64,000 bases of DNA from Pirellula sp. SH-Sr6A. Lineage in GTDB: Bacteria > Planctomycetota > Planctomycetia > Pirellulales > Pirellulaceae. The translations under genes and the position numbers were made by a program. How positions within the stretch are numbered: position 1 is the first letter of the stretch; each line of letters opens with the position of its first letter. The notes below the pieces were generated by a model, which had not been told where the DNA came from, did not search any database, and worked only from the letters and a program-made list of their open reading frames with translations. Below are positions 11,087-54,981 of the stretch, one piece after another. The DNA lies in the NCBI RefSeq assembly GCF_001610875.1, contig NZ_CP011272.1, forward strand, positions 248,001-312,000, in the 5' to 3' direction.

Positions 11087-11512
11087 CTATCCCCCCGTTT
11101 TCTGCTCCCCTCGCCCCGCTTCGGGGAGAGGGGCTGGGGGTGAGGGGTTGGGCACCTTCACAAACTCTTCAATCGCTCGAATCACTTCGCGACCATCCCG
11201 AATCACCGCATAGCCAGGTATACGAAGGACTCTATACCCTCGCCCTTGCAGGAATCGATCGCGATGCCGATCATGAGCTAACCCATCCTCGGTGAAATGG
11301 CTTTCGCCATCGATCTCAATAATGAGTTTCTCCTCCACGCAACAGAAATCCACCGTGTAAGGTGGAATCGGATATTCACGACGGAACTTCAAACCTTGGA
11401 TCTGTCGATTGCGAATCCAGTGCCAAACATTTGTCGAAAATTCGTTGGACGTTCGACGCTGGCTTTGTGCAAATTCGATTGCTTCTTTGGACCTGGACCG
11501 GCTGCGTTTCAT
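11087..11512 (-). CDS. DUF559 nuclease-like protein, copy a
   Basis: A 141-residue protein of the DUF559 (Vsr/MutH-like, PD-(D/E)xK) family. A basic N-terminus (MKRSRSRSKEAIEFAQ) is followed by WIRNRQIQGLKFRREYPI, then YTVDFCCVEEKLIIEIDG with the VDF aspartate and the ExDG acidic pair. RHRDRFLQGRGYRVLRIPGY follows. These are the expected catalytic and core positions of the family. The last 20 or so residues (NPSPPAPLPEAGRGEQ) are encoded by the element's terminal inverted repeat, and the stop codon lies 20 bp outside the element. There is no methyltransferase or other R-M partner. The likely role is DNA cleavage or nicking; its substrate is unknown. Confidence 0.8.
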   Translation of the reverse strand: MKRSRSRSKEAIEFAQSQRRTSNEFSTNVWHWIRNRQIQGLKFRREYPIPPYTVDFCCVEEKLIIEIDGESHFTEDGLAHDRHRDRFLQGRGYRVLRIPGYAVIRDGREVIRAIEEFVKVPNPSPPAPLPEAGRGEQKTGG

Positions 11513-11647
11513 GGGAATGAGTCTCTCTTCGATGCCGCGGAATCCAATAGCACTTTAAGACCTGGAATCACGTTAGAAACGTTCTCTTATTCTCTCAGCA
11601 CTCAACCCCTCACCCCCCCGCCCCTCTCCCCGAAGCGGGGCGAGGGG
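11107..11647 (-). mobile_element. 541-bp DUF559 element, copy a
   Basis: The element is bounded by terminal inverted repeats of about 45 bp. The outer end reads CCCCTCGCCCCGCTTCGGGG and continues with GAGAGGGGC and GTGAGGGGTT; the other end is its reverse complement with small changes. Each terminus is itself a hairpin (CCCCTCGCCCCG / CGGGGAGAGGGG, 11 of 12 pairs). The nuclease gene is on the minus strand. All eight copies in the window measure exactly 541 bp between the same boundaries. No target-site duplication is obvious. Confidence 0.8.
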
Positions 11648-11692
11648 GGCCGAGAATCAAAAATATGAGGAGCGAGGAGCGAGGGGCATGGA

Positions 11693-11843
11693 GCGCTACC
11701 CATGTCCTGAACCTGAACCAGGGAGCTATTTTCTTCATTCTCGCCGCTCGCTGCTCGCCACTCTTTTCTCCGTTTAGGGGCGGTCGATTCGCCGATAGGG
11801 TGCGAGCAGGGGAAGCCGTCGAGACGACGGCTCTACATTTGCT
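11693..11843 (-). repeat. 145-151-bp hairpin repeat (R2), copy 1
   Basis: In this orientation it runs from gcgctacccatgtcctgaac to ctctacatttgct. It contains a GCCGTCG...CGACGGC hairpin near the right end. It sits between 541-bp elements a and b and recurs between every pair of elements. Confidence 0.85.
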
Positions 11844-12295
11844 CCCGCCTCCCGCCTCAAGCCTCCGCGCTTCCCCCCCCTTTTCTGCTCCCCTCGCCCC
11901 GCTTCGGGGAGAGGGGCTGGGGGTGAGGGGTTGGGCGCCTTCACAAACTCTTCGATCGTTCGAATCACTTCGCGACCATCCCGAATCACCGCAAAGCCTG
12001 GTATACGAAGGACTCTAACCCCTCGCGCATGCAGGAATCGATCGCGATGCTGATCATGAGCTAACCCATCCTCGGTGAAGTGACTTACGCCATCGATCTC
12101 AATAATGAACTTCTGCTCCACGCAACCGAAATCCACGGTGTAAGGTGGAATGGGATATTCGCGACGAAACTTCAATCCTTGGATCTGTCGATTGCGAATC
12201 CAGTGCCAAACATTTGTCGAAAATTCGTTGGACGTTCGACGCTGGCTTTGTGCAAATTCGATTGCTTCTTTGGACCTGGACCTACTGCGTTTCAT
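11774..12295 (-). CDS. DUF559 nuclease-like protein, copy b
   Basis: The DUF559 core is intact (VDFGCVEQKFIIEIDG, then HRDRFLHARGVRVLRIPGF). The annotated protein is 173 residues because translation runs out of the element's terminal repeat, through low-complexity DNA and into the flanking R2 hairpin repeat before a stop. The extra tail (SSRRLPLLAPYRRIDRP) is R2 read in a chance frame. It differs from copy a at scattered positions such as VSH for ESH. Confidence 0.75.
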   Translation of the reverse strand: MKRSRSRSKEAIEFAQSQRRTSNEFSTNVWHWIRNRQIQGLKFRREYPIPPYTVDFGCVEQKFIIEIDGVSHFTEDGLAHDQHRDRFLHARGVRVLRIPGFAVIRDGREVIRTIEEFVKAPNPSPPAPLPEAGRGEQKRGGKRGGLRREAGANVEPSSRRLPLLAPYRRIDRP

Positions 12296-12430
12296 GGAAA
12301 TGAGTCTCTCTTCGATTCCATGGAATCCAATAGCAATTCAAGACCTGGAATCACGTTAGAAACGTTCTCTTATTCTCTCAGCACTCAACCCCTCACCCCC
12401 CCGCCCCTCTCCCCGAAGCGGGGCGAGGGG
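11890..12430 (-). mobile_element. 541-bp DUF559 element, copy b
   Basis: Same boundaries, inverted termini and orientation as copy a. Start-to-start spacing from copy a is 783 bp. Confidence 0.8.
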
Positions 12431-12475
12431 GGCCGAGAACAGAGAATATGAGTAGCGAGTAGCAAAGAGCATGGA

Positions 12476-12620
12476 GCGCTACCCATGTCCTGAACCTAAA
12501 CCAGGTAGCTATTTTCTTCACTATTGCTGCTCGCCACTCTTTTCTCCGTTTAGGGGCGGTCGTTTCGCCGATAGGGTGCATGCGGGGGAAGCCGTCGAGG
12601 ACGACGGCTCTACATTTGCT
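12476..12620 (-). repeat. R2 hairpin repeat, copy 2
   Basis: A 145-bp copy between elements b and c. The hairpin loop here is the TCCT/AGGA form (gccgtcgaggacgacggc). Confidence 0.85.
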
Positions 12621-12665
12621 CTCGCTCCGGCCTCAAGCCTCCGTGCTTCCCCCCCCTTTTCTGCT

Positions 12666-13071
12666 CCCCTCGCCCCGCTTCGGGGAGAGGGGCTGGGGGT
12701 GAGGGGTTGGGCGCCTTCACAAACTCTTCGATCGTTCGAATCACTTCGCGACCATCCCGAATCACCGCAAAGCCTGGTATACGAAGGACTCTAACCCCTC
12801 GCCCTTGCAGGAATCGATCGCGATGCCGATCATGCGCTAACCCATCCTCGGTGAAGTGACTTGCTCCATCGATCTCAATAATGAGTTTCTGCTACACGCA
12901 ACCGAAATCCACGGTGTAAGGTGGAATGGGATATTCGCGACGAAACTTCAATCCTTGGATCTGTCGATTGCGAATCCATTGCCAAACATCTGTCGAAAAT
13001 TCGTTGGATGTTCGACGCTTGCTTTGTGCAAATTCGATTGCTTCTTTGGACCTGGACCGGCTGCGTTTCAT
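12666..13071 (-). pseudogene. DUF559 nuclease-like gene, copy c, nonsense mutation
   Basis: The gene starts at 13071 (MKRSRSRSKEAIEFAQSKRR) and reads normally for 59 codons to VDFGCV. The GAG codon found in the other copies is then TAG (12892-12894). This removes the ExDG acidic pair and the rest of the fold. The frame downstream of the stop is otherwise intact, so the mutation is recent. Confidence 0.85.
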
Positions 13072-13206
13072 GGGAATGAGTCTCTCTTCGATTCCATGGA
13101 ATCCAATAGCACTTCAAGACCTTGAATCACGTTGGAAACTTTCTCTTACTCTCTCAGCGCTCAACCCCTCACCCCCCCGCCCCTCTCCCCGAAGCGGGGC
13201 GAGGGG
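12666..13206 (-). mobile_element. 541-bp DUF559 element, copy c
   Basis: Same termini and length as the other copies, but its nuclease gene is interrupted by a nonsense codon. Confidence 0.8.
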
Positions 13207-13244
13207 GGCCGAGAACAGAGAATATGAGTAGCGAGGGGCATGGA

Positions 13245-13395
13245 GCGCTACCCATGTCCTGAACCTGAACCAGGGAGCTATTTTCTTCATTCTCGCCGCT
13301 CGCTGCTCGCCACTCTTTTCTCCGTTTAGGGGCGGTCGTTTCGCCGATAGGGTGCATGCGGGGGAAGCCGTCGAGACGACGGCTCTACATTTGCT
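13245..13395 (-). repeat. R2 hairpin repeat, copy 3
   Basis: A 151-bp copy between elements c and d, followed on the right by a GCCTCAA heptamer run (about 13420-13450). Confidence 0.85.
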
Positions 13396-13441
13396 GTCGC
13401 CACTCCTCCGGCCTCCGGCCTCAAGCCTCAAGCCTCAAGCC

Positions 13442-13882
13442 TCAAGCCTCGGTGCTACCCCCCCCGGATCTCTGCTCCCCTCGCCCCGCTTCGGGGAGAG
13501 GGGCTGGGGGTGAGGGGTTGGGCACCTTCACAAACTCTTCGATCGTTCGAATCACTTCGCGACCATCCCGAATCACCGCAAAGCCGGGTATACGAAGGAC
13601 TCTATACCCTCGCCCATGCAGGAATCGATCGCGATGCCGATCATGAGCTAACCCATCCTCGGTGAAGTGGCTTTCGCCGTCGATCTCAATAATAAGCTTC
13701 TGCTCCACGCAACAGAAATCCACGGTGTAAGGTGGAATGGGATATTCACGACGGAACTTCAATCCTTGGATCTGGCGATTGCGAATCCATTGCCAAACAT
13801 TTGTCGAAAATTCGTTGGAGGTTCGACGCTGGCTTTGTGCAAATTCGATTGCTTCTTTGGACCTGGACCGGCTGCGTTTCAT
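13442..13882 (-). CDS. DUF559 nuclease-like protein, copy d
   Basis: A 146-residue protein with an intact core (VDFCCVEQKLIIEIDGESH, then RHRDRFLHGRGYRVLRIPGF). The upstream palindrome in this copy and in copy a has a GCGC-type centre (GATTCCGCGGCATC) instead of GATTCCATGGAATC in most others. The stop lies 35 bp outside the element. Confidence 0.8.
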   Translation of the reverse strand: MKRSRSRSKEAIEFAQSQRRTSNEFSTNVWQWIRNRQIQGLKFRREYPIPPYTVDFCCVEQKLIIEIDGESHFTEDGLAHDRHRDRFLHGRGYRVLRIPGFAVIRDGREVIRTIEEFVKVPNPSPPAPLPEAGRGEQRSGGGSTEA

Positions 13883-14017
13883 GGGAATGAGTCTCTCTTC
13901 GATGCCGCGGAATCCAATAGCACTTTAAGACCTGGAATCACGTTGGAAACGTTCTCTTATTCTCTCAGCACTCAACCCCTCCCCCCCCCGCCCCTCTCCC
14001 CGAAGCGGGGCGAGGGG
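13477..14017 (-). mobile_element. 541-bp DUF559 element, copy d
   Basis: The fourth and last copy of the left cluster, in the same orientation. Start-to-start spacing from copy c is 811 bp. Confidence 0.8.
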
Positions 14018-14062
14018 GGCCGAGAATCAAAAATATGAGGAGCGAGGAGCGAGGGGCATGGA

Positions 14063-14213
14063 GCGCTACCCATGTCCTGAACCTGAACCAGGGAGCTATT
14101 TTCTTCATTCTCGCCGCTCGCTGCTCGCCACTCTTTTCTCCGTTTAGGGGCGGTCGATTCGCCGATAGGGTGCATGCGGGGGAAGCCGTCGAGGACGACT
14201 GTTCGACATTGCT
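14063..14213 (-). repeat. R2 repeat fused to the end of an R3-type hairpin, copy 4
   Basis: It starts like the other R2 copies, but the terminal hairpin changes within the stem: gaagccgtcgaggacgactg then ttcgacattgct. The left stem arm is of the R2 type and the right arm of the R3 type. This looks like recombination at the shared loop. Confidence 0.75.
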
Positions 14214-14573
14214 CTCGCCACTCGTTACTCGCCTCTCGCCACTCGCTACTTCCCACTTTGCCTAGCCACGCCAACTACTTCCTTCACGCAAAAACAGTCG
14301 AGGACGACTGTTCGACATTGCTCTCGCCTCTCGCCACTCGCTACTCGCTACTTCCCACTTTGCCTAGCCACGCCAACTACTTCCTTCACGCAAAAACAGT
14401 CGAGGACGACTGTTCGACATTGCTCTCGCCTCTCGCCTCTCGCCTCTCGCCTCTCGCTACTCGCTACTCGCTACTCGCTACTCGCTACTCGCTTTTCGTC
14501 CCTTCCCACTTTGCCTAGCCACGCCAACTACTTCCTTCACGCAAAAACAGTCGAGGACGACTGTTCGACATTG
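14191..14573. repeat. Tandem blocks ending in the AACAGTCG-loop-CGACTGTT hairpin
   Basis: The sequence gaggacgactgttcgacatt recurs at 14191, 14300, 14402 and 14553. Each of the last three is preceded by about 60 bp (tttgcctagccacgccaact through acgcaaaaacagt), which is the right end of the 233-bp R3 element. Between them lie CTCGCCT/CTCGCTA heptamer runs. No gene is present. Confidence 0.8.
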
Positions 14574-14758
14574 CTTCCGCCTCTCTTCTTTCTCGCTTCT
14601 CGCTTCTCGCTACTCGCTTCTAACTGCTAACTGCTTACTGCTTACTACTTACTACTTACTACTTACTACTTACTACTTACTACTTACTACTTACTACTTA
14701 CTACTTACTACTTACTACTTACTACTCGCCACTCGCCACTCGCTACTCGCTACTTATT
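14574..14758. repeat. Heptamer tract with about 12 TTACTAC units
   Basis: Runs of 7-bp units: CGCTTCT/CGCTACT, then about 12 TTACTAC between 14636 and 14724, then CGCCACT/CGCTACT. The last units overlap the 3' end of the TPR glycosyltransferase gene and supply its stop codon. Confidence 0.9.
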
Positions 14759-17046
14759 TCTCTCATCTTTTCTTCGAAGTCTTTTGCGAATTGGGGGCCG
14801 TCGCATAGGGGGGAGTCGAGGACGCGTTGACGGAGGGTGCGACGCAAGGGAGATAATCGCTCGATCTCGCTCGCCCACGCGCATGCTTTTGCAATGTACT
14901 CCTCCGACGACGATGCAATGAACTCGGTGAGGCCGACATTAGATAGATGACTCAAGGAATGCCGACCGGCAAACGTGCGATGCGGCCAAGTTACCGTGGG
15001 TATGCCCATCCACATGGCTTCTATCGTGGTAAGTCCACCCGAATAAGGAAACGTGTCGAGCGCGAGGTCGACGCGATGGTATCGCTCCATCAACGATGCA
15101 GCCCCAGTCGTTTGATCGAACTCGATCCGCCCCCCACAACCCATTCCCTCCATCGCCGATTCGATCCGCTCCCGATTCATTCGATCTGGCATCCCCGTAT
15201 AACAAAGCAACAATCGGGAATTCGGTACGCGTCGCATGATCTCGCCCCAATGCAGCATAACCCTGCGATTGATCTTGGCCGGATTGCACATCGCACCAAA
15301 CGTGACATACCCCTTTCGCTCCGCCGGCAACTCCCCAATGGGTGGCGCATCTTCAGGTGGCGTATAAGTCACGTACCCATGGGGCATGCGCAATATCTTT
15401 TCGGTGTAATAGCACTCGAACTCCGACGGGACATGGAAACGATCCGCGAGAAGATAGTCCATCGTTTGAAGACCCGTTGTTCCCACATATCCCGCCCAAC
15501 TGATCTGAACGGGAGCCGCCCGCGACGCAAAAACTCCCAGCCGGTTGTTCGCAGTGTGTCCCGACAGATCGAACAAAATATCCACTTCATCGGACCGAAT
15601 CCGATCGCGCAGCGCTTCATCGCTCCAAGCAGCCGCGTCCAACCAACGAAACGTCTCCGCTTCGATCTTCGCGGCAAGCCAATCGCGACCAATTCGATCC
15701 GAGTAAACAAATGTCTGGAATCGGTCGCGATCCAGATGCTTGAACAGTCGATACGTGAAATAACCCACGGGGTGGGCGCCGAGATCCGCCGAGGTGAAAC
15801 CAATCCGCAGCGGACGGTCGCGTTGAGGAAGATTTGAATTGCGCGCAACGCTCGCAACGGCGCAATGGTCCGGTGCAGCCACTTGTTCTGTTTCGGGAGC
15901 AACGCTTTGCCACCAGAGGTCATGCTCGTCGCGCAGTTTCTCGGGGGTAATATCGGGGTGGTATTGCATGGCCATGAGCAATCCGTCGTGCGCGTCCCGG
16001 ACCTTGCCTCGCAACGCGATGGCAGATCGAAACCGCTCGATCGCCGTATCGATGTCCCCGACGCTCAAGCAGCAGCCGGCCTCCAGCAACAACGCCTCGT
16101 GGTTCTTCGGATCGAGCTCTCGTCCCTTTTGAATGGCCTCGAGGGCATCGGATAGCCGTCCCAGTTTGCGCAGGGCATTGCTGTAATTGCAAAAGGTCGT
16201 CGCGTAGGAGGGATTCTCGGACAGAGAACGTTCCAAGAACGAAACGGCCGCGGTCGCATTGCCAAGCGTGGTTTGCAGAAGCCCAATTGCATTGAGAACC
16301 AGATGATGGTTCGGTGCTCGTTGATGCGCACGATCGAGCCAGCGTTTCCCTTCGTCGATTTCGTGCCGAGAGAAGTGCGTCGAAGCCAGCCGCGTCAACG
16401 CATCAACGCTAGTCGGACTCAGCTCGGTCGCTTTCGTGTATTGCACGATCGCTTCGTCGATCCGGCCCAGCCGCTTGAGAACCGCCCCTTTGGAGAGATG
16501 CAATTCGACATTCGGCCGACAGCGCTCGATCGCCCGGTTCGCCCACTCCAAGGCTTCCTCCACTCGCCGTTCTTCCGAGAGGAGACGCAATAGGCTGAGA
16601 TAGGGAGAAGCCGTGGAGGGTGAAGCGTCGATCGCTTTTCGGAAGGCTTCTTCGGCGCGCAGGTTGTTCTCTTGCAATCGGTAGGCCTTGCCAAGATTGA
16701 ACCAAGTATCGTGGGCTTCGGGGTTGGATTGGAGGGCTCGCTGATAGGTTGCGATGGCTTCGTCGATCCGTCCGATATTCCGGAGTGCAACGCCAAGGTT
16801 CCCGAGAAAGACGCTGCTATCGGGGCTCCATCGCAGGGCCTGTTGGATGCAATCGATCGCGGCAACGTGATTCCCGTTGGCCATCTCGATGAGACCTAGC
16901 AAGTGCAGTGCATCGGGTTGTTCGGGGCATACCTCGAGCACTTGCCGATAGAGAGACTGTGCATCGGCCAGTTTCCCCTGTTGTTGCAGCGCGACCCCTT
17001 TGTTGAGCAGGGCGACGACATAATCGGAGGGAGAGAAGGAGTTCAT
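14743..17046 (-). CDS. TPR-containing O-GlcNAc-transferase-like (SPINDLY/GT41) glycosyltransferase
   Basis: A protein of about 767 residues. Residues 1-370 are about ten TPR motifs. Residues about 400-760 form the split GT41 catalytic region: IGFTSADLGAHPVGYF, DILFDLSGHTANNRLGVFASRAAP, ISWAGYVGTTGLQTMDYLLAD and FDLALDTFPYSGGLTTIEAMWMG-type motifs, ending near FAGRHSLSHLSNVGL. These match UDP-sugar-dependent O-glycosyltransferases acting on protein Ser/Thr. It is cytoplasmic, with no signal peptide. ATG at 17046 is chosen; a TTG at 17064 would overlap the upstream gene. The upstream TPR glycosyltransferase ends 4 bp away, so they are co-transcribed. The last residues (SSE) and stop come from a GAGTAGC heptamer tract. 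Confidence 0.88.
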   Translation of the reverse strand: MNSFSPSDYVVALLNKGVALQQQGKLADAQSLYRQVLEVCPEQPDALHLLGLIEMANGNHVAAIDCIQQALRWSPDSSVFLGNLGVALRNIGRIDEAIATYQRALQSNPEAHDTWFNLGKAYRLQENNLRAEEAFRKAIDASPSTASPYLSLLRLLSEERRVEEALEWANRAIERCRPNVELHLSKGAVLKRLGRIDEAIVQYTKATELSPTSVDALTRLASTHFSRHEIDEGKRWLDRAHQRAPNHHLVLNAIGLLQTTLGNATAAVSFLERSLSENPSYATTFCNYSNALRKLGRLSDALEAIQKGRELDPKNHEALLLEAGCCLSVGDIDTAIERFRSAIALRGKVRDAHDGLLMAMQYHPDITPEKLRDEHDLWWQSVAPETEQVAAPDHCAVASVARNSNLPQRDRPLRIGFTSADLGAHPVGYFTYRLFKHLDRDRFQTFVYSDRIGRDWLAAKIEAETFRWLDAAAWSDEALRDRIRSDEVDILFDLSGHTANNRLGVFASRAAPVQISWAGYVGTTGLQTMDYLLADRFHVPSEFECYYTEKILRMPHGYVTYTPPEDAPPIGELPAERKGYVTFGAMCNPAKINRRVMLHWGEIMRRVPNSRLLLCYTGMPDRMNRERIESAMEGMGCGGRIEFDQTTGAASLMERYHRVDLALDTFPYSGGLTTIEAMWMGIPTVTWPHRTFAGRHSLSHLSNVGLTEFIASSSEEYIAKACAWASEIERLSPLRRTLRQRVLDSPLCDGPQFAKDFEEKMREISSE

Positions 17047-17050
17047 TCCA

Positions 17051-18985: not shown

Positions 18986-20029
18986 AGGGACGTAGGCGAG
19001 GATAGGGAGATCCGAGGCGTGTGAAGGTGCAGTCGATCCAGTCCGAGGAGTCACCTCGTTCGGTGGTTCTCATAGGTTCACGGGAGAAACGACAGCGAGA
19101 CGATGCGTTTCCAAACCGGCTTCTTACTATAGCAAGCCGTTGACGAACCAAGCATGAATGGGAGATCGTATCGAGGTCTATTAAACCGGCACGCTAACCG
19201 TTCCTATTACGATCGCATCCTCATCTTTTGTTGGTTTGTAGGGATTGATGAAGCGCATTCATGCACGACGACTGGGGCCGACTCTTCGACTGCACGCGTT
19301 TACGAATCGGGCGCGCGCATGCGCGATGACGCTAGATGAATGAATCAATCGTTACTGCGATGTCGCGCAAGTCTGTTCGGCGATGGTTCGATTCACGAAT
19401 TGAGAATCAACGCAAGCGTGGCAACCGCAAAACAGCCGTTTTTTTGAATGGATGCCGGTCGCGTTCCGGCACGCAACCGGCACTCCATTTTCAACACGCG
19501 ATGGAGTCGCGAAGAACAAACGGGCACGGAAAGTGAAAGTGGCTACTTCAACGCATACTTCCAGACAAGTTCTCATTCTCACCAACGAATTGATTGATAG
19601 AACCGCCACGTAATCGGTGCATCTTTTTGTCATGCGCTCATGCAAAGGAAGCTTGCTTTGCGTTCTCAAAACAAAGTCGGCAGAAAGCGAACAAGTTATT
19701 TTCCTATTTTAGCGCGCTATTTTCTTGGTTCATGGAGCTTGACTGACGAGCGTGCCGGTTCCCGTTGCTTGACGGCATGTATTGCCCATCTAAATTACGA
19801 GGCTTGTGTCGGATGGAAGGATTGTTCCTTCCGTGACAACTGTGCCGCCGCCCAAATCCAACCCCGCCTTCTTTGTGATTACATCGTTGAAAGTTGCCCA
19901 GCTTCCTTCGAGTCTGCTTAACTCAATTAGCCCGCTGAACTCAATTGTTGTTAAGGGTCTTCGGATCGGCTTCGTCGCTGACTTTCGTATTCATCTTGTT
20001 GCTGCAACTGTTAGTTCGAGAGATTTATT
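18986..20029. other. 1-kb intergenic region upstream of the giant surface-protein gene
   Basis: No convincing gene was found; the short ORFs here (61-105 codons) have no recognisable features. The region is more AT-rich than its surroundings, especially 19200-19720. It separates two divergent transcription units and probably contains regulatory sequence for both. No repeats of the R2 or 541-bp type occur here. Confidence 0.6.
19769..19796 (+). promoter_or_regulatory. Weak candidate promoter for the giant Calx-beta gene
   Basis: TTGACG (5/6) and TAAATT (4/6) are 16 bp apart, about 235 bp upstream of the start codon. Consensus match only; a long leader would result. Confidence 0.25.
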
Positions 20030-37020: not shown

Positions 37021-37165
37021 AGCAAATGTAGAGCCGTCGTCTCGACGGCTTCCCCTGCTCGCACCCTACCGGCGAATCGACCAGGCCTAGACGGAGGAAC
37101 GAGTGGCGAGTAACAAGAGTGAAGAAAATAGCTACCTGGTTTAGGTTCAGGACATGGGTAGCGCT
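37021..37165 (+). repeat. R2 hairpin repeat, copy 5
   Basis: A 145-bp copy, inverted relative to those of the left cluster. It runs from agcaaatgtagagccgtcgt to gacatgggtagcgct. Confidence 0.88.
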
Positions 37166-37313
37166 CCATGCTCCATGCTCCATGCTCCATGCTCCTTGCT
37201 CCTTGCTCCTTGCTCCTTGCTCCTTGCTCCTTGCTCCTTGCTCCTTGCTCCTTGCTCCTTGCTCCTTGCTCCTTGCTCTTTGCTCTTTGCTCTTTGCTCT
37301 TTGCTCTTTGCTA
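37166..37313. repeat. Heptamer tract (CCATGCT, CCTTGCT, CTTTGCT)
   Basis: About 148 bp of 7-bp units in three successive blocks: GCTCCAT, GCTCCTT and GCTCTTT. The blocks differ by one or two bases, as if each arose from the previous one. Confidence 0.93.
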
Positions 37314-37335: not shown

Positions 37336-37876
37336 CCCCTCGCCCCGCTTCGGGGAGAGGGGCGGGGGGGTGAGGGGTTGAGCGCTGAGAGAGTAAGAGA
37401 AAGTTTCCAACGTGATTCAAGGTCTTGAAGTGCTATTGGATTCCATGGAATCGAAGAGAGACTCATTCCCATGAAACGCAGCCGGTCCAGGTCCAAAGAA
37501 GCAATCGAATTTGCACAAAGCAAGCGTCGAACATCCAACGAATTTTCGACAAATGTTTGGCAATGGATTCGCAATCGACAGATCCAAGGATTGAAGTTTC
37601 GTCGCGAATATCCCATTCCACCTTACACCGTGGATTTCTGTTGCGTGGAGCAGAAACTCATTATTGAGATCGATGGCGCAAGTCACTTCACCGAGGATGG
37701 GTTAGCGCATGATCTGCATCGCGATCGATTCCTGCATGCGCGAGGGGTTAGAGTCCTTCGTATACCTGGTTATGCGGTGATTGGGGAAGGTCGCGAAGTG
37801 ATTCGAGCGATTCAAGAGTTTGTGAAGGTGCCCAACCCCTCACCCCCAGCCCCTCTCCCCGAAACGGGGCGAGGGG
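37336..37876 (+). mobile_element. 541-bp DUF559 element, copy e
   Basis: Same inverted termini and length as in the left cluster but in opposite orientation. Between the left terminus and the gene lies a perfect 14-bp palindrome, GATTCCATGGAATC (37439-37452), 18 bp before the start codon; it could be an operator or a recognition site. Confidence 0.8.
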
Positions 37877-37911
37877 AGCAGAGATCCGGGGGGGGTAGCA
37901 CCGAGGCTTGA
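37471..37911 (+). CDS. DUF559 nuclease-like protein, copy e
   Basis: A 146-residue protein. The core is intact (VDFCCVEQKLIIEIDGASH). Copies e, f and g share VIGEGREVIRAIQEF where the left-cluster copies have VIRDGREVIR[AT]IEEF, so the right cluster expanded by local duplication. This copy alone has HDLHRD for HDRHRD. The stop is 35 bp outside the element, after GEQRSGGGSTEA. Confidence 0.8.
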   Translation: MKRSRSRSKEAIEFAQSKRRTSNEFSTNVWQWIRNRQIQGLKFRREYPIPPYTVDFCCVEQKLIIEIDGASHFTEDGLAHDLHRDRFLHARGVRVLRIPGYAVIGEGREVIRAIQEFVKVPNPSPPAPLPETGRGEQRSGGGSTEA

Positions 37912-37965
37912 GGCTTGAGGCTTGAGGCTTGAGGCTTGAGGCTTGAGGCTTGAGGCTTGAGGCCG
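37905..37965. repeat. Heptamer tract (GGCTTGA)
   Basis: About eight GGCTTGA units directly after the DUF559 stop codon, ending in GGCCGGA variants. Confidence 0.92.
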
Positions 37966-37985
37966 GAGGCCGGAGGAGTGGCGAC

Positions 37986-38209: not shown

Positions 38210-38750
38210 CCCCTCGCCCCGCTTCGGGGAGAGGGGCGGGGGGGTGAGGGGTTGAGCGCTGAGAGAGTAAGAGAAAGTTTCCAACGTGATTCAAGGTCTT
38301 GAAGTGCTATTGGATTCCATGGAATCGAAGAGAGACTCATTCCCATGAAACGCAGCCGGTCCAGGTCCAAAGAAGCAATCGAATTTGCACAAAGCAAGCG
38401 TCGAACATCCAACGAATTTTCGACAAATGTTTGGCAATGGATTCGCAATCGACAGATCCAAGGATTGAAGTTTCGTCGCGAATATCCCATTCCACCTTAC
38501 ACCGTGGATTTCTGTTGCGTGGAGCAGAAACTCATTATTGAGATCGATGGCGCAAGTCACTTCACCGAGGATGGGTTAGCGCATGATCGGCATCGCGATC
38601 GATTCCTGCATGCGCGAGGGGTTAGAGTCCTTCGTATACCTGGTTATGCGGTGATTGGGGAAGGTCGCGAAGTGATTCGAGCGATTCAAGAGTTTGTGAA
38701 GGTGCCCAACCCCTCACCCCCAGCCCCTCTCCCCGAAGCGGGGCGAGGGG
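38210..38750 (+). mobile_element. 541-bp DUF559 element, copy f
   Basis: Same structure and orientation as copy e, 874 bp further on. Confidence 0.8.
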
Positions 38751-38785: not shown

Positions 38786-38831
38786 GGCTTGAGGCTTGAG
38801 GCTTGAGGCCGGAGGCCGGAGGAGTGGCGAC

Positions 38832-38976
38832 AGCAAATGTAGAGCCGTCGTCTCGACGGCTTCCCCCGCATGCACTCTATCGGCGAATCGACCGACCCTA
38901 GACGGAGGAACGAGTGGCGAGTAGCAAGAGTGAAGAATATAGCTACCTGGCTTAGGTTCAGGACATGGGTAGCGCT
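38832..38976 (+). repeat. R2 hairpin repeat, copy 7
   Basis: A 145-bp copy with a few substitutions (tgcactctatcggcg for tgctcgcaccctaccggcg). It is preceded by GGCTTGA heptamers at 38776-38822. Confidence 0.88.
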
Positions 38977-39076
38977 CCATGCTCCATGCTCCATGCTCCT
39001 TGCTCCTTGCTCCTTGCTCCTTGCTCCTTGTTCCTCGCTACTCGCTACTCGCTACTCGCTCTTTGCTACTCGCTAC
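38977..39076. repeat. Heptamer tract (CCATGCT, CCTTGCT, ACTCGCT)
   Basis: About 100 bp of 7-bp units that shift from CCATGCT through CCTTGCT to ACTCGCT. Confidence 0.9.
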
Positions 39077-39097
39077 TCATATTCTCTGTTCTCGGCC

Positions 39098-39638
39098 CCC
39101 CTCGCCCCGCTTCGGGGAGAGGGGCGGGGGGGTGAGGGGTTGAGCGCTGAGAGAGTAAGAGAAAGTTTCCAACGAGATTCAAGGTCTTGAATTGCTATTG
39201 GATTCCATGGAATCGAAGAGAGACTCATTCCCATGAAACGCAGCCGGTCCAGGTCCAAAGAAGCAATCGAATTTGTACAAAGCAAGCGTCGAACATCCAA
39301 CGAATTTTCGACAAATGTTTGGCAATGGATTCGCAATCGACAGATCCAAGGATTGAAGTTTCGTCGCGAATATCCCATTCCACCTTACACCGTGGATTTC
39401 TGTTGCGTGGAGCAGAAACTCATTATTGAGATCGATGGCGCAAGTCACTTCACCGAGGATGGGTTAGCGCATGATCGGCATCGCGATCGATTCCTGCATG
39501 CGCGAGGGGTTAGAGTCCTTCGTATACCTGGTTATGCGGTGATTGGGGAAGGTCGCGAAGTGATTCGAGCGATTCAAGAGTTTGTGAAGGTACCCAACCC
39601 CTCACCCCCAGCCCCTCTCCCCGAAACGGGGCGAGGGG
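39098..39638 (+). mobile_element. 541-bp DUF559 element, copy g
   Basis: The last copy of the right cluster, 888 bp after copy f, with the same structure. Confidence 0.8.
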
Positions 39639-39658: not shown

Positions 39659-39684
39659 CACCGAGGCTTGAGGCTTGAGGCCGG

Positions 39685-39829
39685 AGCAAATGTAGAGCCG
39701 TCGTCTCGACGGCTTCCCCTGCTCGCACCCTACCGGCGAATCGACCAGGCCTAGACGGAGGAACGAGTGGCGAGTAACAAGAGTGAAGAAAATAGCTACC
39801 TGGTTTAGGTTCAGGACATGGGTAGAGCT
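39685..39829 (+). repeat. R2 hairpin repeat, copy 8
   Basis: A 145-bp copy following a short GGCTTGA run. Confidence 0.88.
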
Positions 39830-39912
39830 CCATGCTCCATGCTCCATGCTCCATGCTCCATGCTCCTCGCTCCATGCTCCATGCTCCTCGCTACTCGCTA
39901 CTCGCTCTTTGC
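39830..39912. repeat. Heptamer tract (CCATGCT, ACTCGCT)
   Basis: A 7-bp-unit tract ending 1 bp before the TAA stop codon of the minus-strand BNR-repeat gene. Confidence 0.9.
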
Positions 39913-39913
39913 T

Positions 39914-43162: not shown

Positions 43163-43167
43163 GCGGG

Positions 43168-44454: not shown

Positions 44455-44597
44455 GTCTTGCCTATCCGTGGCTTGGCGATGGTGTAGGAACCGAGGACTG
44501 TTGCCCTGCGGCTGATGTGCTGACGGCCGACTGGGGACCGGGGCGATTGCCCTACGGCTGATGACTTCTTCCAGTGTGCCTTTTAATGGATACTGGG

Positions 44598-48266: not shown

Positions 48267-50455
48267 GACTTCGAAGGCTCACGCGTGTTATGCAGAACGA
48301 AAGCCCACATGTCGGCAGCTGCTTCGATTAATTTGCTGACCGGAGTTCCAGCGCCATGCCCAGCACTGGTCTCGATTCGGATCAGGGCCGGCTTCGTTCC
48401 GCTTTGACAGGCTTGCAGACGTGCCGCAAATTTAAAGCTATGTCCCGGTACGACTCGATCGTCGTGATCCGCCGTGGTAACCATTGTCGCAGGATAACGA
48501 GTGCCAGGCCTCAAGTTGTGAAGGGGAGAATAGGATCGCAGCGTCGAAAACTGTTTGGGATCCTCACTGCTCCCAAACTCATTGACCCAAGCCCATCCAA
48601 TGGTGAACTTCTGAAACCGGAGCATATCCATAACCCCAACCGCAGGAAGAGCGACGGCGAAAAGATCGGGACGCTGCGTCATGACCGCGCCAATTAGCAA
48701 GCCCCCATTGCTCCGTCCGTGCACAGCGAGTCGCTCCTTGTTCGTGTAGCGATTCTCGATGAGATACTCTGCCGCAGCGATAAAATCGTCGAAGCAATTC
48801 TGCTTCTTGTCGAGCATCGCCGATTCATGCCACTCCCGACCATACTCTCCACCCCCGCGAATGTTCGCCACGGCATATAGGCCCCCTTGCTCCATCCAAG
48901 CAACATTGGCCGGAGAAAACGTGGGCGTGATCGAAATATTGAAGCCCCCGTACGCATAGAGGAAGGCACGTCCCTTCCCGTTTTGAACGAACCCTTTCTT
49001 GTACGACAGAATGAGTGGAATGCGCGTCCCATCTTTGCTGGTATAGAAGGTTCTCTCGGTTACGAAGTCATTGGGATCGAATGCAATCTTCGGTGCACGC
49101 CATGGTTTAACCGTGCCGTCGGACAAATCGACTTGATAGGTTGCTGGCGGGGTGATGGTGTTGGTGAACGAGAAGAAGGTTTGTTTCGATGTCCGTTTCC
49201 CTTCGAATCCGGTGACGGTCCCAAGTCCGGGGATGGGCAAATCCTCAAGGCGTGTCCCATCGACTCGATACCGCCGCACTACGCTGGTGGCGTCTTGGAG
49301 GAGAATGACAAAAAATTGATCTTGGAGAAGACTCGCCCCTTCGATCGACTCGGCGGATTCGGGAACGATGGTCTTCCAATTCGATTCCTCACTTTGCTTC
49401 CGGTCTATCGCGATAATCCGACGTTTGGGAGCATCGCGATCGGTTTCGAAATAGAACAGGTCGCCGTCGTTGCCGAGGAATTCGTATTCCGCAACGAATC
49501 CGCTCAGAAGCTCGCTAAAGTCCCTTTGGGAGGGGACGGCGTCAGCCTTGATCGGCGCATAGAAGATTTGATTTTTGCGCTCCGTACCGCGCCAAACCGA
49601 GACAATGAGAAAAGCGCCGTCGTCCGACACCTTCGGTCGGAAGCCCCATTCCTTTTCATCACGGCGTTCGTAGACGAGGAGATCGTCCGATTGCGGCGTT
49701 CCGACTTTGTGGTAACAGAGTTTCTGAAAGTAGTTGGCTCCCGTGAATTCCGATTCGGACTTGGGCTGGTCGTAACGGCTGTAGAAAAAACCGGTGTTGT
49801 CCTTCGTCCAAGCGACCGTGCTGAACTTGATCCATTCCATCGAATCGGTCAGGTCACTTCCCGTTTCTATATTACGGACCTTCCACGTATTCCAATCGCT
49901 TCCGGCTTTCGCAAGCCCATATGCCAGCCATTTTCCATCGCTGCTCACTTCATAACCGGCGAGTGAAGTCGTGCCGTCGGAGCTGAGTGTATTGGGATCG
50001 AGCAACACCTCTCTCCGGGCATCAAGCTCGGCGGCTTTGTAGAGAATGTTTTGATTCTGCAATCCGTTGTTGTGCGAATAGACCCAAGTCGTTCCGTGCA
50101 CGGAGGGAAAGCCATATCGCTCGTAATTCCAGAGCTCGCCCAACCGCTGGACCAGCGACTCACGTTCCGGAATTCCTTTTAAATACCCGAACGTAAGCTC
50201 ATTCTGTTTTTTCACCCAGTCCTTGGTGTCAGAGCTATCGACATCTTCAAGCCATCGGAAGGGGTCTTCTATTTTTTGGCCATGATAATCGTCGACCTGA
50301 TCGACCGCGTGGGACGAGGGGTAGACCAAGTTGGGAGATGCGTCGTCCGGTTCCGCAACTGGACTTGCCTGCCCAAGAACCGGGCTGGAACCAGCCCCCC
50401 AACACAGAGTGATCAAGACAAAAACCGCGCAGCGGGTGAACGATTGGTGCATCAA
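48263..50455 (-). CDS. Exported prolyl oligopeptidase (S9A family)
   Basis: A 730-residue protein with a signal peptide (MMHQSFTRCAVFVLITLCWGAG, then SSPVLGQA). The family N-terminus YHGQKIEDPFRWLED is present, followed by a seven-bladed propeller and an alpha/beta-hydrolase domain. Catalytic residues are visible: serine in HGRSNGGLL (near residue 583), aspartate in DHDDRVVPGHS (near 665), and histidine in SAGHGAG (near 700). It cleaves short proline-containing peptides, here probably in the periplasm. Its stop overlaps the mfd start by 4 bp, and the zinc-ribbon gene ends 21 bp upstream. Confidence 0.93.
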   Translation of the reverse strand: MMHQSFTRCAVFVLITLCWGAGSSPVLGQASPVAEPDDASPNLVYPSSHAVDQVDDYHGQKIEDPFRWLEDVDSSDTKDWVKKQNELTFGYLKGIPERESLVQRLGELWNYERYGFPSVHGTTWVYSHNNGLQNQNILYKAAELDARREVLLDPNTLSSDGTTSLAGYEVSSDGKWLAYGLAKAGSDWNTWKVRNIETGSDLTDSMEWIKFSTVAWTKDNTGFFYSRYDQPKSESEFTGANYFQKLCYHKVGTPQSDDLLVYERRDEKEWGFRPKVSDDGAFLIVSVWRGTERKNQIFYAPIKADAVPSQRDFSELLSGFVAEYEFLGNDGDLFYFETDRDAPKRRIIAIDRKQSEESNWKTIVPESAESIEGASLLQDQFFVILLQDATSVVRRYRVDGTRLEDLPIPGLGTVTGFEGKRTSKQTFFSFTNTITPPATYQVDLSDGTVKPWRAPKIAFDPNDFVTERTFYTSKDGTRIPLILSYKKGFVQNGKGRAFLYAYGGFNISITPTFSPANVAWMEQGGLYAVANIRGGGEYGREWHESAMLDKKQNCFDDFIAAAEYLIENRYTNKERLAVHGRSNGGLLIGAVMTQRPDLFAVALPAVGVMDMLRFQKFTIGWAWVNEFGSSEDPKQFSTLRSYSPLHNLRPGTRYPATMVTTADHDDRVVPGHSFKFAARLQACQSGTKPALIRIETSAGHGAGTPVSKLIEAAADMWAFVLHNTREPSKS

Positions 50456-50476
50456 GTTGTTAAATCCTAGTAGCGA

Positions 50477-52159
50477 TTAGTCCGCTTCTTCTGAGCTGAA
50501 ATCGCCGGTGAATCCGAGTCCGGTGATATCGCTGATACGGCCGGCTAGTAAACCGTACTGGTTGAACACGAACAACACGGTGAAGGGCATGAACAGTCCA
50601 ATGGCGATCTCGCCGACGATTCCATCCCGTAGAGCCCAAGCGTTCAGAACAAACAAGAACCCGTATGCGAGCATCGTTTGCAGATACATGGCCCCCCAAG
50701 CATCTGGCTTGGCTTTGAACGACTCGAACACATTCTTAGAAAATGGCTCGGTGATCGCATTGTTATCCGCCATGCTCAGTAGAAAGAACGGGAATAAGAG
50801 CCAGGTCGAAATCAATCCAAAGAGTGCCGTCGTGATATGACTCCCGGCAATCGAGGCCAACCCACTCCCGACCATTCCACCTGGGATGGAGGCGATCGCC
50901 AGGGAGGCTAGCACCATGATCACCTCTCCCGCCATTTCACCCGTTCGAGTGAATGGCCAATCTTGAATGCGGTGGTATTGGTTCGCCACCGTCGAGAGGA
51001 CGCACATGCCGAGCGCCAACAAGGAACCAAAGACGGGCACACAAGGTACGAGGAAGATCACTGCCTGCAGGATAACGCCGAGCCGCTCCGTCGCTTGGAA
51101 GAGCTCAGGTGCTGCCGTCACCATGGGGAACCAGATGGCGCAAAACAGTCCGAAGAAGATCATGATAAAGACGAGCAGGGGATCTCGGCAAAACCAGAAC
51201 AGGAGCGAGATCCAGCGTTGGGAATCGAAGGATGCGGTGAGTCCCTCCAATTCTTTCTGTTCTGCGTCGACTTCCGCGCGCGCCTTTTCCAACATCTCGT
51301 CGGTCCTGGCTTTGGAAGAGCTCGCTTCTCGAACGGAATTCCCCTCGGATCGCACGAACTTCACGTCGGCGATTTCATGGTCCAAGACAACCGTGCGCTG
51401 TTTCTTGGGGATCTTGGGCTCGGGGACGATGAACTCTGAAAAGCAATCGGGACATCGAACGGATTTGCCGATCCGAGACTTCGGTGCCATCATGCGGGTA
51501 CCGCATACCTTGCACCCAAAGCTGAACTCTTCTTCGCGAGCCGATTCGGACCCGATGTCCAGGGCGCTGCTAGAGAGAACGATATCGTCGAGCACTCCTG
51601 CCAAAGCTGGGGCGCTGTTAGGAAGGTCCAGGCCAATCGGCAAACCTTTCGGTTGGGTCGGCTCGATCGGGGACAACTGGAAGTCGTCATCGAATTCGTC
51701 TAGGGTCGGTTTCGTCTTACTGGCAGCGGGCGTGGAAGCCGCGTTCGCAGAGGTCTTGGGGACGCTGCGACCGGGAGGGGTCGGGACACCATTCGGGTTG
51801 TCTTGGAGTGCAGACTCGACCAACGGTGCCAGCTCCGGTAAGTCGTCGTCGAAAAGACTGGGGCGGCTTGCAGTGTCCGCGACGGAACCCTGCGCTCGCG
51901 TCGCCGATTGGGGAGCTCCCTCTTTCTCGGAAGATTCAGATGGCGATGCGGGAGGCTCGCGATGGTTGCTGGGTGGAGAGGATTGGAGATTGAGCCAGTC
52001 ATCCTCGTCGGAAGCCTTGGGTGGGGCGCCGGGAACGACGATCGTGTTCTTACATTGCGGGCAAGCCAGTCGCTGACCAGCGAGCTTCGAAGGGGCTCGA
52101 AGCTTTTTTTGGCATTGCGGGCAAAGGAAACTCAGTGGTGATGGATTCCCCGTAGACAA
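50477..52159 (-). CDS. Zinc-ribbon membrane protein of unknown function
   Basis: A 560-residue protein. The N-terminus has an MJ0042-type zinc ribbon (C13-P-Q-C16...C33-P-Q-C36). A second ribbon occurs near residue 210 (CKVCGTRMMAP, then CPDCFSEF). Between them lies a low-complexity acidic linker. The C-terminal half has about six membrane helices (for example WISLLFWFCRDPLLVFIMIFF, VILQAVIFLVPCVPVFGSLL, ITTALFGLISTWLLFPFFLL). Similar zinc-ribbon membrane proteins are common in planctomycetes, but I cannot assign a function. It lies 28 bp after ilvD and 21 bp before the peptidase gene, so it is probably in the same operon. Confidence 0.75.
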   Translation of the reverse strand: MSTGNPSPLSFLCPQCQKKLRAPSKLAGQRLACPQCKNTIVVPGAPPKASDEDDWLNLQSSPPSNHREPPASPSESSEKEGAPQSATRAQGSVADTASRPSLFDDDLPELAPLVESALQDNPNGVPTPPGRSVPKTSANAASTPAASKTKPTLDEFDDDFQLSPIEPTQPKGLPIGLDLPNSAPALAGVLDDIVLSSSALDIGSESAREEEFSFGCKVCGTRMMAPKSRIGKSVRCPDCFSEFIVPEPKIPKKQRTVVLDHEIADVKFVRSEGNSVREASSSKARTDEMLEKARAEVDAEQKELEGLTASFDSQRWISLLFWFCRDPLLVFIMIFFGLFCAIWFPMVTAAPELFQATERLGVILQAVIFLVPCVPVFGSLLALGMCVLSTVANQYHRIQDWPFTRTGEMAGEVIMVLASLAIASIPGGMVGSGLASIAGSHITTALFGLISTWLLFPFFLLSMADNNAITEPFSKNVFESFKAKPDAWGAMYLQTMLAYGFLFVLNAWALRDGIVGEIAIGLFMPFTVLFVFNQYGLLAGRISDITGLGFTGDFSSEEAD

Positions 52160-52187
52160 TTGTAACGGATCTCCGTTGAGACAAGGG

Positions 52188-53870
52188 CTATTCGTCCGTG
52201 ACGCAGCCTTCGCTGGCGCTCTTCACGTTCTTAATGTACTTGTACAGTGTACCACGAGTTGCCTTCAAAGGTGGCGCCTTCCACTCGGCCTTTCGCTTCG
52301 CCATTTCTTCATCGGATACGGCAACTTGGAGCAAATTCTTCTCGGCGTCGATGGTGACGATATCGCCGTCGCGAACCAGTGCAAAAGGTCCGCCGACTTG
52401 TGCTTCCGGCGTGACGTGTCCAACGATGAACCCGTGCGATCCACCCGAGAATCGCCCGTCGGTCAGGAGCGCGACATCGGACCCCAATCCAGCTCCCATG
52501 ATGGCCGAGGTGGGGGTGAGCATTTCCGGCATCCCGGGGCCTCCCTTGGGACCTTCGTAGCGAATGAGGATGACATCACCCTTTTGAATCTTCTTTTGTT
52601 CCAGGGCTTCGAGCATCAGCTCTTCGCTGTCGAAGCATCGAGCGGGGCCTTCGAACAAAAGTCCTTCTTTACCAGTGATCTTCGCAACGGCGCCTTCGGG
52701 CGCGAGATTGCCGAATAGAATCTGGATATGCCCGGTCGCTTTGATCGGGTTGGTCAATGGTTGGACAATTTTCTGTCCCGGTTTGAGCTCGGGAAGGGGG
52801 GCGATGTTCTCGGCCAGCGTCTTTCCCGTGACGGTCATGCAATTGCCGTCGAGAAAACCCTCCTTGAGAAGGAACTTCATCACCGCAGGGGTGCCGCCGA
52901 TGGAGTGCAAGTCTTCTTGGACGAATTTGCCAGAAGGCTTGAGGTCGGCCAACAAAGGAACGCGATCGCTGACGTTCTGAAAATCCTTCAATGTCAAATC
53001 GATATCCACACTGCGAGCCATCGCGATCAAGTGAAGGACTGCATTGGTGCTGCCCCCCAACGCCATCACGACAACCATGGCGTTTTCAAAGGCGGCGCGA
53101 GTCATGATGTCGCGAGGTTTCAAGTCGATTTCCATGAGAAGCTTGATAGCCTTGGCCGCTCGCGCACACTCGTCGATCTTGGCGGGATCTTCGGCAGGAA
53201 TGGAAGCCGAATAGGGGAGCGCCATACCGAGCGCTTCGATGGCCGATGCCATGGTATTGGCGGTATACATCCCACCGCAAGCTCCCGCACCGGGGCACGA
53301 GTTGCGAACGATGCTGGCACGCGTCTCTTCATCGATTTGACCTGCCAAATATTGACCGTAGCACTGGAATGCCGAAACGATATCGAGCGAGGTCCCATTC
53401 CACTTGCCAGCACGAATCGTCCCCCCATAGATCATGAGCGACGGGCGATTCAATCGGCCCATGGCCATCAGACAGCCCGGCATGTTCTTGTCGCAACCAG
53501 GAATGGCGATCAAGGCATCGTACCACTGAGCACCCATGATGGTCTCGATCGAGTCGGCGATCAGATCGCGAGACTGCAGGGAGTAAGACATTCCCTCGGT
53601 CCCCATGCTGATTCCATCGCTCACCCCGACGGTGTTGAATCGCATTCCGACCAACCCTTCCGCCACCACCGCGTTCTTGGCTTTGAGGCCCAAGTCCAGG
53701 AGGTGCATGTTGCAGGTATTCCCCTCGTACCAAACGCTCCCGATCCCAACTTGCCCTTTGTTCATATCCTCCGGTGTCATCCCGGTGCCATACAACATGG
53801 CTTGCGACGCCCCTTGGCTCTTGGGCTGCGTGATGCGGGACGAATATTTGTTCAAGTTAGATGCGGTCAT
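52188..53870 (-). CDS. ilvD: Dihydroxy-acid dehydratase
   Basis: A 560-residue protein, the usual IlvD length. It dehydrates 2,3-dihydroxy-isovalerate and its isoleucine analogue in branched-chain amino acid synthesis. Cysteines of the Fe-S cluster are visible in [19 protein letters not shown] and [29 protein letters not shown] and the C-terminal [23 protein letters not shown] motif confirm the family. ATG at 53870 ([13 protein letters not shown]) is chosen; the open frame runs on to 54095 through repeat DNA, which is a chance extension. Confidence 0.96.
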
Positions 53871-53954
53871 TGCGTTCAGAGAGGGCTGGAGGGTTTGAAG
53901 CGTACTATCGCAACGATTGTAGTTTCCGCGCCAGGGATTGGTAACCACAAATGA

Positions 53955-53998
53955 AGTAGCGAGTAGCGAGGGGCGGGAGGCGAGGGGCGGGAGGGGTG
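53955..53998. repeat. Heptamer-like tract upstream of ilvD
   Basis: GTAGCGA units followed by GGGCGGGAGGCGAGG variants, lying between ilvD and the R3 copy. The ilvD promoter must lie in the 80 bp before it or within it. Confidence 0.75.
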
Positions 53999-54007
53999 GC
54001 AGCCCTA

Positions 54008-54240
54008 GTGTCGAGCAGTCGTCCTCGACTGTTTCCCCCGTCTCCACACTACCGGCGAATCGACCGGCCCGTTTAACGTTGACTCGCTGGAGCACTCCCC
54101 TTTGAATACCGTTCGGAGAACAGTTCGAACATAGAACGCCGTTTGGAAAACGGCTACTACACAGGCCGACCGGGAAATGCTGCCTAGCCCCGGCAGCTAC
54201 TTCCTTCTCGCAAAAACAGTCGAGGACGACTGTTCGACAC
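54008..54240 (-). repeat. 233-bp inverted-repeat element (R3), copy 2
   Basis: Reverse-complement arrangement of the copy at 35735, with the same 233-bp length and the same terminal hairpins (GTGTCGAGCAGTCG ... CGACTGTTCGACAC). The middle shows many substitutions relative to copy 1 and small compensated differences. Confidence 0.8.
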
Positions 54241-54282
54241 TGCCTTCCCTTCCTGCCTCGCGCCTCTCTTCTTTCTCGCTAC

Positions 54283-54357
54283 GCCGTCTAGGCCTGGTCG
54301 ATGGGCCGGTAGGGTGCGAGCGGGGGAAGCCGTCGAGACGACGGCTCTACATTTGCT
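54283..54357 (-). repeat. R2 hairpin repeat, partial copy 9
   Basis: Only the hairpin half (ccgtctaggcctggtcg to ctctacatttgct) is present. It is followed by ACTCGCT heptamers to about 54422. Confidence 0.8.
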
Positions 54358-54411
54358 CTCGCTCCCGCCTCTCTTCTTTCTCGCCACTCGCTACTCGCTA
54401 CTCGCTACTCG

Positions 54412-54846
54412 CTACTCGCTATTCCCCCCGGTCCTCTGCTCCCCTCGCCCCGTTTCGGGGAGAGGGGCTGGGGGTGAGGGGTTGGGTACCTTCACAAACT
54501 CTTCAACCGCTCGAATCACTTCGCGACCTTCCCCAATCACCGCATAACCAGGTATACGAAGGACTCTAACCCCTCGCGCATGCAGGAATCGATCGCGATG
54601 CTGATCATGAGCTAACCCATCCTCGGTGAAATGACTTGCGCCATCGATCTCAATAATGAGCTTCTGCTCCACGCAACCGAAATCCACGGTGTAAGGTGGA
54701 ATGGGATATTCACGACGGAACTTCAATCCCTGAATCTGGCGATTGCGAATCCATTGCCAAACATTTGTCGTAAATTCGTTGGATGTTCGACGCTAGCTTT
54801 GTGCAAATTCGATTGCTTCATTGGACCTCGACCGGCTGCGTTTCAT
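54412..54846 (-). pseudogene. DUF559 nuclease-like gene, copy h, nonsense mutation
   Basis: Starting at 54846, the gene reads MKRSRSRSNEAIEFAQS and then TAG (54793-54795), where other copies have an AAG or CAG codon. The rest of the frame is open to 54412 and contains the full nuclease core (VDFGCVEQKLIIEIDGASH). A shorter product of 104 residues could start at TTG before KFRREYP, so residual activity is not excluded. Confidence 0.8.
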
Positions 54847-54981
54847 GGGACTGAGTCTCTCTTCGATTCCATTGAATCCGATAGCACTTCAAGACCTTGA
54901 ATCACGTTGGAAACTTTCTCATACTCTCTCAGCACTCAACCCCTCACCCCCCCGCCCCTCTCCCCGAAGCGGGGCGAGGGG
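54441..54981 (-). mobile_element. 541-bp DUF559 element, copy h
   Basis: A solitary copy with the same inverted termini and exact 541-bp length, oriented like the left cluster. Confidence 0.8.

Follow-up and report, generated by a model that had tools for sequence, protein, structure and literature searches.

What spreads the short palindromic repeats that are common in bacterial genomes? Outside the classes linked to RAYT proteins, we know of no named enzyme that does so. A 64,000-nucleotide stretch of the Pirellula sp. SH-Sr6A genome (the window, by which we mean this whole stretch) raises the question anew, as it holds eight copies of a 541-bp unit in which a DUF559 gene lies between inverted hairpins. 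Related hairpins frame DUF559 genes in many phyla, and they also occur without the gene. We consider it somewhat the likelier case that the unit is a gene-bearing element of the repetitive extragenic palindrome (REP)/REPIN kind, with a DUF559 nuclease as its partner instead of a RAYT, and that this nuclease drives its copying. If so, DUF559, a family of unknown function, would gain a role in spreading palindromic repeats, and Escherichia coli K-12 would offer a testable pair, the gene ycjD and its box C palindrome, giving a long-open question a concrete assay.

The unit and its predicted nuclease

All eight units terminate 541 bp after their start, in CGGGGCGAGGGG, and CCCCTCGCCCCG occurs in the window only at the eight unit starts; the copy number, length and starts given in a preliminary description of this DNA are borne out by these positions and shared termini. 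In copy 1, the hairpin on the 3' side of the gene (11107..11151) consists of the stem CCCCTCGCCCCG..CGGGGAGAGGGG, followed by CT and the tail GGGGGTGAGGGG, with equivalents in all eight copies, and the hairpin on the 5' side (11603..11647) is inverted relative to it. In the four copies that form array 1, inverted repeats of 43-49 nt with 88-91% complementarity make up the arms, and the other window copies end as these do. As single-stranded DNA, each end of copy 1 folds into a hairpin (-12.5 kcal/mol with z -2.1, and -11.9 kcal/mol with z -2.6), in keeping with the hairpin termini of about 45 bp described at the outset.

The sole gene of the unit had been taken for DUF559, and a match to PF04480 confirms it (three copies scanned, with E between 6e-26 and 8e-23). 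Six of the eight copies in the window have an open frame. The ratio of mean pN to mean pS (nonsynonymous to synonymous differences) among the copies is 0.31, so the protein has been under constraint, in the form of purifying selection. A structure model of the copy 4 protein (mean pLDDT 83) matches 3hrl (E 7e-6) and the catalytic domain of I-Bth0305I (3r3p, E 5e-5) and, more weakly, E. coli Vsr (1vsr, E 3.6e-3; 1cw0, E 0.019), with mitoribosomal chains scoring between. A profile of seven relatives, the window protein excluded, finds 3hrl at 9e-37 and 3r3p at 0.012. In these seven DUF559 relatives E19, D48, H65 and D72 are invariant; the window clade retains the D, H and D of this EDxHD set and carries a Glu two residues earlier, with Ser in the usual place. 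Modelling thus points to a Vsr/EDxHD-type fold, in line with the PD-(D/E)xK-like nuclease first assigned to the space between the hairpins; given the displaced Glu, nuclease activity of the window protein is putative.

Hairpin flanks of DUF559 genes in other phyla

How far does this arrangement extend? DUF559 is present in 35 of 60 genomes, the Pirellula genome included. We scanned DUF559 genes for flanking palindromes by aligning the 300 bp on the left of the domain locally against the reverse-complemented 300 bp on its right, and loci with a score of at least 16 count as positive. The set of 125 loci leaves out the eight window copies. It comprises 42 planctomycete loci (those of the 49 fetched, L082-L130, with an open reading frame matching at least 70 positions of the hidden Markov model), 79 GTDB loci (the best 80 of at least 573 relatives, minus one whose flank was too short) and four plasmid-collection loci chosen by hand from 44 records. 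Inverted-repeat flanks were found at 84 of the 125: 35 of the 42 planctomycete loci, 46 of the 79 drawn from the best GTDB relatives, and three of the four from plasmids. The positive GTDB loci belong to 11 named phyla and to Aminicenantes, and the plasmid collection contributes Deinococcota and Cyanobacteriota, for 13 named phyla in total; many GTDB loci come from metagenome bins, and individual phylum labels are less sure than this total. The guess that DUF559 and hairpins might be broadly associated has thus held up well.

Windows shifted by 1.0-1.3 kb at the same loci gave no positive in 350 (0/50, 0/284 and 0/16), and the flanks of other long open reading frames at these loci gave two in 135, namely L121, which is itself a DUF559 array, and L144. 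At L144, a non-DUF559 open reading frame also has inverted-repeat flanks, with a score of 29. When flanks were paired across loci, 61 of 300 draws reached 16 because termini resemble each other across phyla, and the weight therefore rests on the shifted-window and gene-flank controls. The seven window copies that were scored all reached at least 16; so did their single control window, because it fell inside the array. Both matched segments contain a hairpin at 71 of the 84 positive loci, against a mean of 2.9 and a maximum of 5 in shuffled sequence. On a tree of 124 DUF559 domains, the terminal-inverted-repeat label changes 30 times compared with 34.5 in shuffles, and is thus weakly clustered.

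The terminus that these loci have in common consists of a stem-loop on the outside and, next to it, a tail in which the half-site of the stem recurs (GGGnGAGGG, a short spacer, GGTGAGGGG). Beside the window terminus, this architecture is seen in E. coli (CCCCTCGCCCC..GGGGAGAGGG TTA GGGTGAGGGG), in Chloroflexota (CTTCCCCC..GGGGGAAGG TTA GGATGGGGGTGA) and in Pseudanabaena (CCCCCCAGAATTGGGGGG CTA GGGGGGC). By a simple pattern rule the tail points toward the gene at 56 loci and away from it at 5, and is unclear at 23. On a Pseudanabaena plasmid, palindromes of the CCCCCAATTCTGGGGG type bracket a DUF559 gene (L134), and two more copies lie downstream. Termini and proteins vary together: the Mantel r between their similarities is 0.56 over 71 loci and 0.29 over 39 GTDB loci, matched ends longer than 75 nt being excluded (p 0.0005, the minimum from 2000 permutations), with the same result after GC correction. 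This signal speaks for hairpins and gene being one unit, and not by itself for binding.

Hairpins without the gene

Does the terminus also exist on its own? In the 6.53-Mb Pirellula genome the hairpin pattern, with up to three mismatches, has 21 forward and 20 reverse matches, and the reversed pattern used as a control has none. Solo ends of 41-43 bp lie at genome positions 5066480, 3605183 and 33544, the only three in this genome; the one at 5066480 is common to the relative G026. In genomes of the genus, window-type palindromes occur at many sites, often as gene-less inverted pairs about 150 bp apart, and 18 such pairs, hand-chosen from lists of palindrome sites, align over about 195 bp. One terminus thus recurs in three forms: alone as a solo hairpin, as an inverted pair with no gene, and as a pair with the nuclease gene inside. 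This supports the REPIN-like geometry that the preliminary description saw in the gene-bearing copies. In several genus genomes a MITE-like element (miniature inverted-repeat transposable element; L260-L277) with ends near CCTCATCTTTACCCACAT encloses a palindrome pair.

A second hairpin type (CCCCTTCTCCTCC..) bounds gene-bearing DUF559 units in several genomes. It also bounds six gene-less units of 252-275 bp, found in G020 and G023 among 20 loci scanned, which lie at unrelated sites, their flanks being no more similar than shuffled sequence. An outer repeat around TGGGCTGTTAAAAATT lies near three second-type DUF559 units, L096, L097 and L114, on both sides in the first two; these three units look as though a further small element contained them. 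Two Chloroflexota genomes contain 34 and 23 matches, respectively, to the hairpin type that belongs to their own DUF559 locus, and 13 other genomes contain none. One candidate pair of empty and occupied sites, L115 and G020:C274, was rejected, as G020:C274 has another gene there; for array 1 and its neighbours, seven relatives offered no usable orthologous junction.

E. coli provides a third view of the same architecture. Its DUF559 gene, ycjD, lies between sapF and fabI, and the palindrome between ycjD and fabI, which we take to be a box C repeat, has the terminus CCCCTCGCCCCTCTGGGGAGAGGGTTAGGGTGAGGGG, built like the window ends. A 46-mer of this palindrome is found in 5377 of 5426 E. coli genomes, at a median of 19 and a maximum of 35 places (matches with E up to 10). 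In a sample of 60 genomes, the 37 with ycjD carry it at 12-27 places (median 19) and the 23 without at 1-18 (median 4; Mann-Whitney p 7e-10, lineage not corrected). Strains SS52 and FDN-4 were considered as empty sites for ycjD and rejected, an efflux operon being in place.

The palindrome itself is polymorphic among strains, at three of the four sites examined. Between pstB and pstA, 12 of 29 sampled rows are occupied and 17 empty, and the difference is a 92-bp indel bounded by AACCGTGT, an 8-bp repeat that is single in the empty allele. At recA-recX the occupied query is covered in 1623 of 5375 genomes, and occupation there comes with the replacement of about 16 bp; at tisB it is covered in 1502 of 5372, with REP-like sequence instead in the empty allele. 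The pstB-pstA repeat is a candidate target-site duplication, and recA-recX and tisB have no clear one. The zntA-tusA site, covered in 5364 of 5375 genomes, was uninformative. Between emrD and tisB, REP-like sequence or an inverted box C pair alternate by strain (L310 and L311 versus L302 and L312), and the two occupied strains do not have the same loop and stem in their first box C.

How the units may have spread

Did the eight window copies then arise by eight insertions? They did not. Copies 1 to 4 form array 1 on the minus strand: copy 1 (11107..11647; start codon 11512) has a DUF559 frame that extends beyond the unit to 11087, copies 2 (11890..12430; start codon 12295) and 4 (13477..14017; start codon 13882) have open frames, and copy 3 (12666..13206) has one in-frame TAG. 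Copies 5 (37336..37876), 6 (38210..38750) and 7 (39098..39638) form array 2 on the plus strand, all with open frames and with start codons at 37471, 38345 and 39233. Copy 8 (54441..54981, minus strand) stands single and has one in-frame TAG. Identity among the copies is 92.6-99.6%. The tandem arrays, which contain seven of the eight, have periods of 776-811 bp (array 1) and 874-888 bp (array 2), and the homology overruns the 541-bp limits by about 20 bp on the upstream side of the gene and by 6 bp or more on the downstream side. The duplicated segment was larger than the unit, because the 264-bp spacer between copies 3 and 4 (13207..13470) has matching stretches beside other copies (79-229 bases). 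In the whole genome there are nine DUF559 copies and no other DUF559 matches, all at 242-303 kb, thus within 61 kb; the ninth, at genome position 242223 outside the window, is degraded.

From the shared spacers and the arrays it follows that copies in the Pirellula genome mostly spread as segments, and most window copies stem from tandem duplications in which unit and flank were copied together. The view of the copies as independent insertions therefore falls, and eight clean transpositions are rejected. Segmental duplication within one genome, which had been named as the finding that would speak against a mobile unit, largely accounts for the copies in Pirellula and does not account for the occurrence of the unit across genomes.

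Dense 7-mer and 14-mer satellites (GCTCCTT, CTCGCTA, GAGGCTT, GCAAAGAGCATGGA) flank the units on both sides, beyond the limits of their homology, at 10861-11034, 14423-14726, 37163-37312, 37903-37970 and 38974-39078. Just past array 1, at 14188-14461, a distinct repeat of 102 bp runs in tandem for 2.6 copies and includes GTCGAGGACGACTGTTCGACATTG.

How, then, would the unit move between sites? We envision that the DUF559 nuclease recognises the hairpin terminus and makes a nick or a cut there, close by, or at an empty site related to it, and that repair would then copy the hairpin, the pair or the whole unit into the new place. Each of these steps, the binding, the nuclease-driven copying and the repair route, is conjectural. 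Excerpts of PMC12308824 describe Legionella pneumophila segments with a transposase and DUF559 as recombination hotspots, which we count in favour of nuclease-driven copying. A bolder reading, which we advance tentatively and with slightly more doubt than belief, is that DUF559 is the missing partner of pan-bacterial hairpin repeats, including E. coli box C and the cyanobacterial CCCCCAATTCTGGGGG type, and that a Vsr/EDxHD nuclease reads their inverted and direct half-sites jointly, with neither HUH nor DDE chemistry.

Several observations weigh against a nuclease-driven element. Inverted repeats are absent at 41 of the 125 loci, including E. coli ycjD (score 9.5), and 13 of the 84 positive loci lack a hairpin on one side or both: by our rule seven, including L212 from Elusimicrobiota, have none, and L190 from Bipolaricaulota has one on a single side. 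Plain co-inheritance of a cassette would also yield the Mantel signal. The EDxHD set of the window clade has its first Glu displaced, and the window copies form arrays with common spacers. An outer motif, CTCATCTTTACCCACAT, is found on at least one side of 13 of the 18 gene-less pairs and on both sides of 5, and such pairs may therefore ride in an ordinary MITE. The interiors of the six second-type gene-less units are mostly dissimilar (median score 11, equal to shuffled sequence; highest 44). A second genome-specific hairpin pattern was not clean: its own genome gave three matches, two of which are the locus itself, and three further genomes gave 2, 1 and 10. Among the junctions compared, none provided a clean empty site for a gene-bearing unit. 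In E. coli, O55/O157-type strains without ycjD still have about 12 copies of the palindrome, so the link to ycjD is confounded by lineage; the pstB-pstA indel equally fits a deletion between the 8-bp repeats, and the recA-recX and tisB polymorphisms look like replacements.

Could another enzyme do the work? A RAYT or a MITE transposase might spread the hairpins, with DUF559 as cargo between them, an account that we think rather unlikely. It would explain the outer inverted motif at many window-type gene-less pairs and the outer TGGGCTGTTAAAAATT repeat at L096, L097 and L114, and potential sources exist, since a search of 15 genomes for Y1_Tnp found 3 genes in the Pirellula genome, 2-19 in each of nine relatives, 6 in G064 and 2 in G072. 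However, the same search gave no match in the Chloroflexota bins with 34 and 23 hairpins (G066 and G067) nor in G060, so that a RAYT seems not to be needed there, unless it is hidden by incomplete assembly, the completeness of these bins being uncertain. Moreover, if the gene were cargo, one would not expect to meet a single family across 13 named phyla together with termini that track its phylogeny.

Homing or gene conversion would keep the nuclease as the agent and change its target: the enzyme would cut an element-free allelic or similar site, recombination would copy the element, and the hairpins would serve as a long recognition site instead of transposon ends, much as free-standing homing endonucleases operate. 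Among the nearest solved homologues is the I-Bth0305I catalytic domain; this homing endonuclease has a target of nearly 60 bp according to excerpts of PMC3943268, and the replacement-like alleles at recA-recX and tisB suit such a process. Strict allelic homing, though, does not give hairpins at many unrelated sites, and we regard this explanation as unlikely. Still less credible to us is a housekeeping role, in which DUF559 would be a Vsr-like repair nuclease, the hairpins terminators or mRNA stabilisers framing the gene by chance, and the window a case of local tandem amplification. The window arrays with their spacers fit it, and excerpts of PMC12907096 propose that the Caulobacter DUF559 protein VsrA repairs TG mismatches and report that cells without the ScmA methyltransferase need VsrA for their SOS induction. 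Against it, a terminator need not recur mirrored upstream nor track the protein's phylogeny, and genomes of the genus have up to 10 DUF559 matches, several with stops, unlike a repair gene. We continue to favour a hairpin-bounded element that its own DUF559 nuclease would copy.

A literature search, with subscription papers and some preprints outside its scope, found no link between DUF559 and palindromic repeats or between ycjD and box C, and the excerpts available of PMC9403480, PMC3733652, PMC12907096, PMC12308824 and PMC3943268 do not tie DUF559 to palindromes.

How does the proposed element compare with systems already described? With MITEs it shares short units, terminal inverted repeats and gene-less copies, but the unit carries a gene and each of its ends is itself a hairpin. 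The E. coli palindrome, presumably box C, has a terminus built like the window ends and adjoins a DUF559 gene; ycjD, however, is without a matching left palindrome and is not a full unit. The protein resembles the EDxHD homing endonuclease I-Bth0305I in its modelled catalytic-domain fold and in its D, H and D residues. It differs in its size of about 120 residues, without added DNA-binding domains in the model, in the displaced first Glu of the window clade, and in a gene that is not in an intron or intein. The modelled fold is also that of Vsr, and Caulobacter VsrA has a DUF559 domain according to parts of PMC12907096, but DUF559 units are bracketed by inverted hairpins and are multi-copy in several genomes.

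The resemblance to REP/REPIN-RAYT systems is one of layout. Both have palindromes that stand alone, palindromes in inverted pairs, and a single- or low-copy gene flanked by such a pair; both also have genome-specific palindrome types and short palindromes dispersed at many sites, here in the genus, Chloroflexota and E. coli genomes. One end of a REP palindrome carries the tag GTAG or CGTC, as stated in parts of PMC3733652, whereas this tag is absent from the window and E. coli termini. The partners differ as well, since DUF559 is modelled with a PD-(D/E)xK-type fold and RAYT has the HUH Y1 fold.

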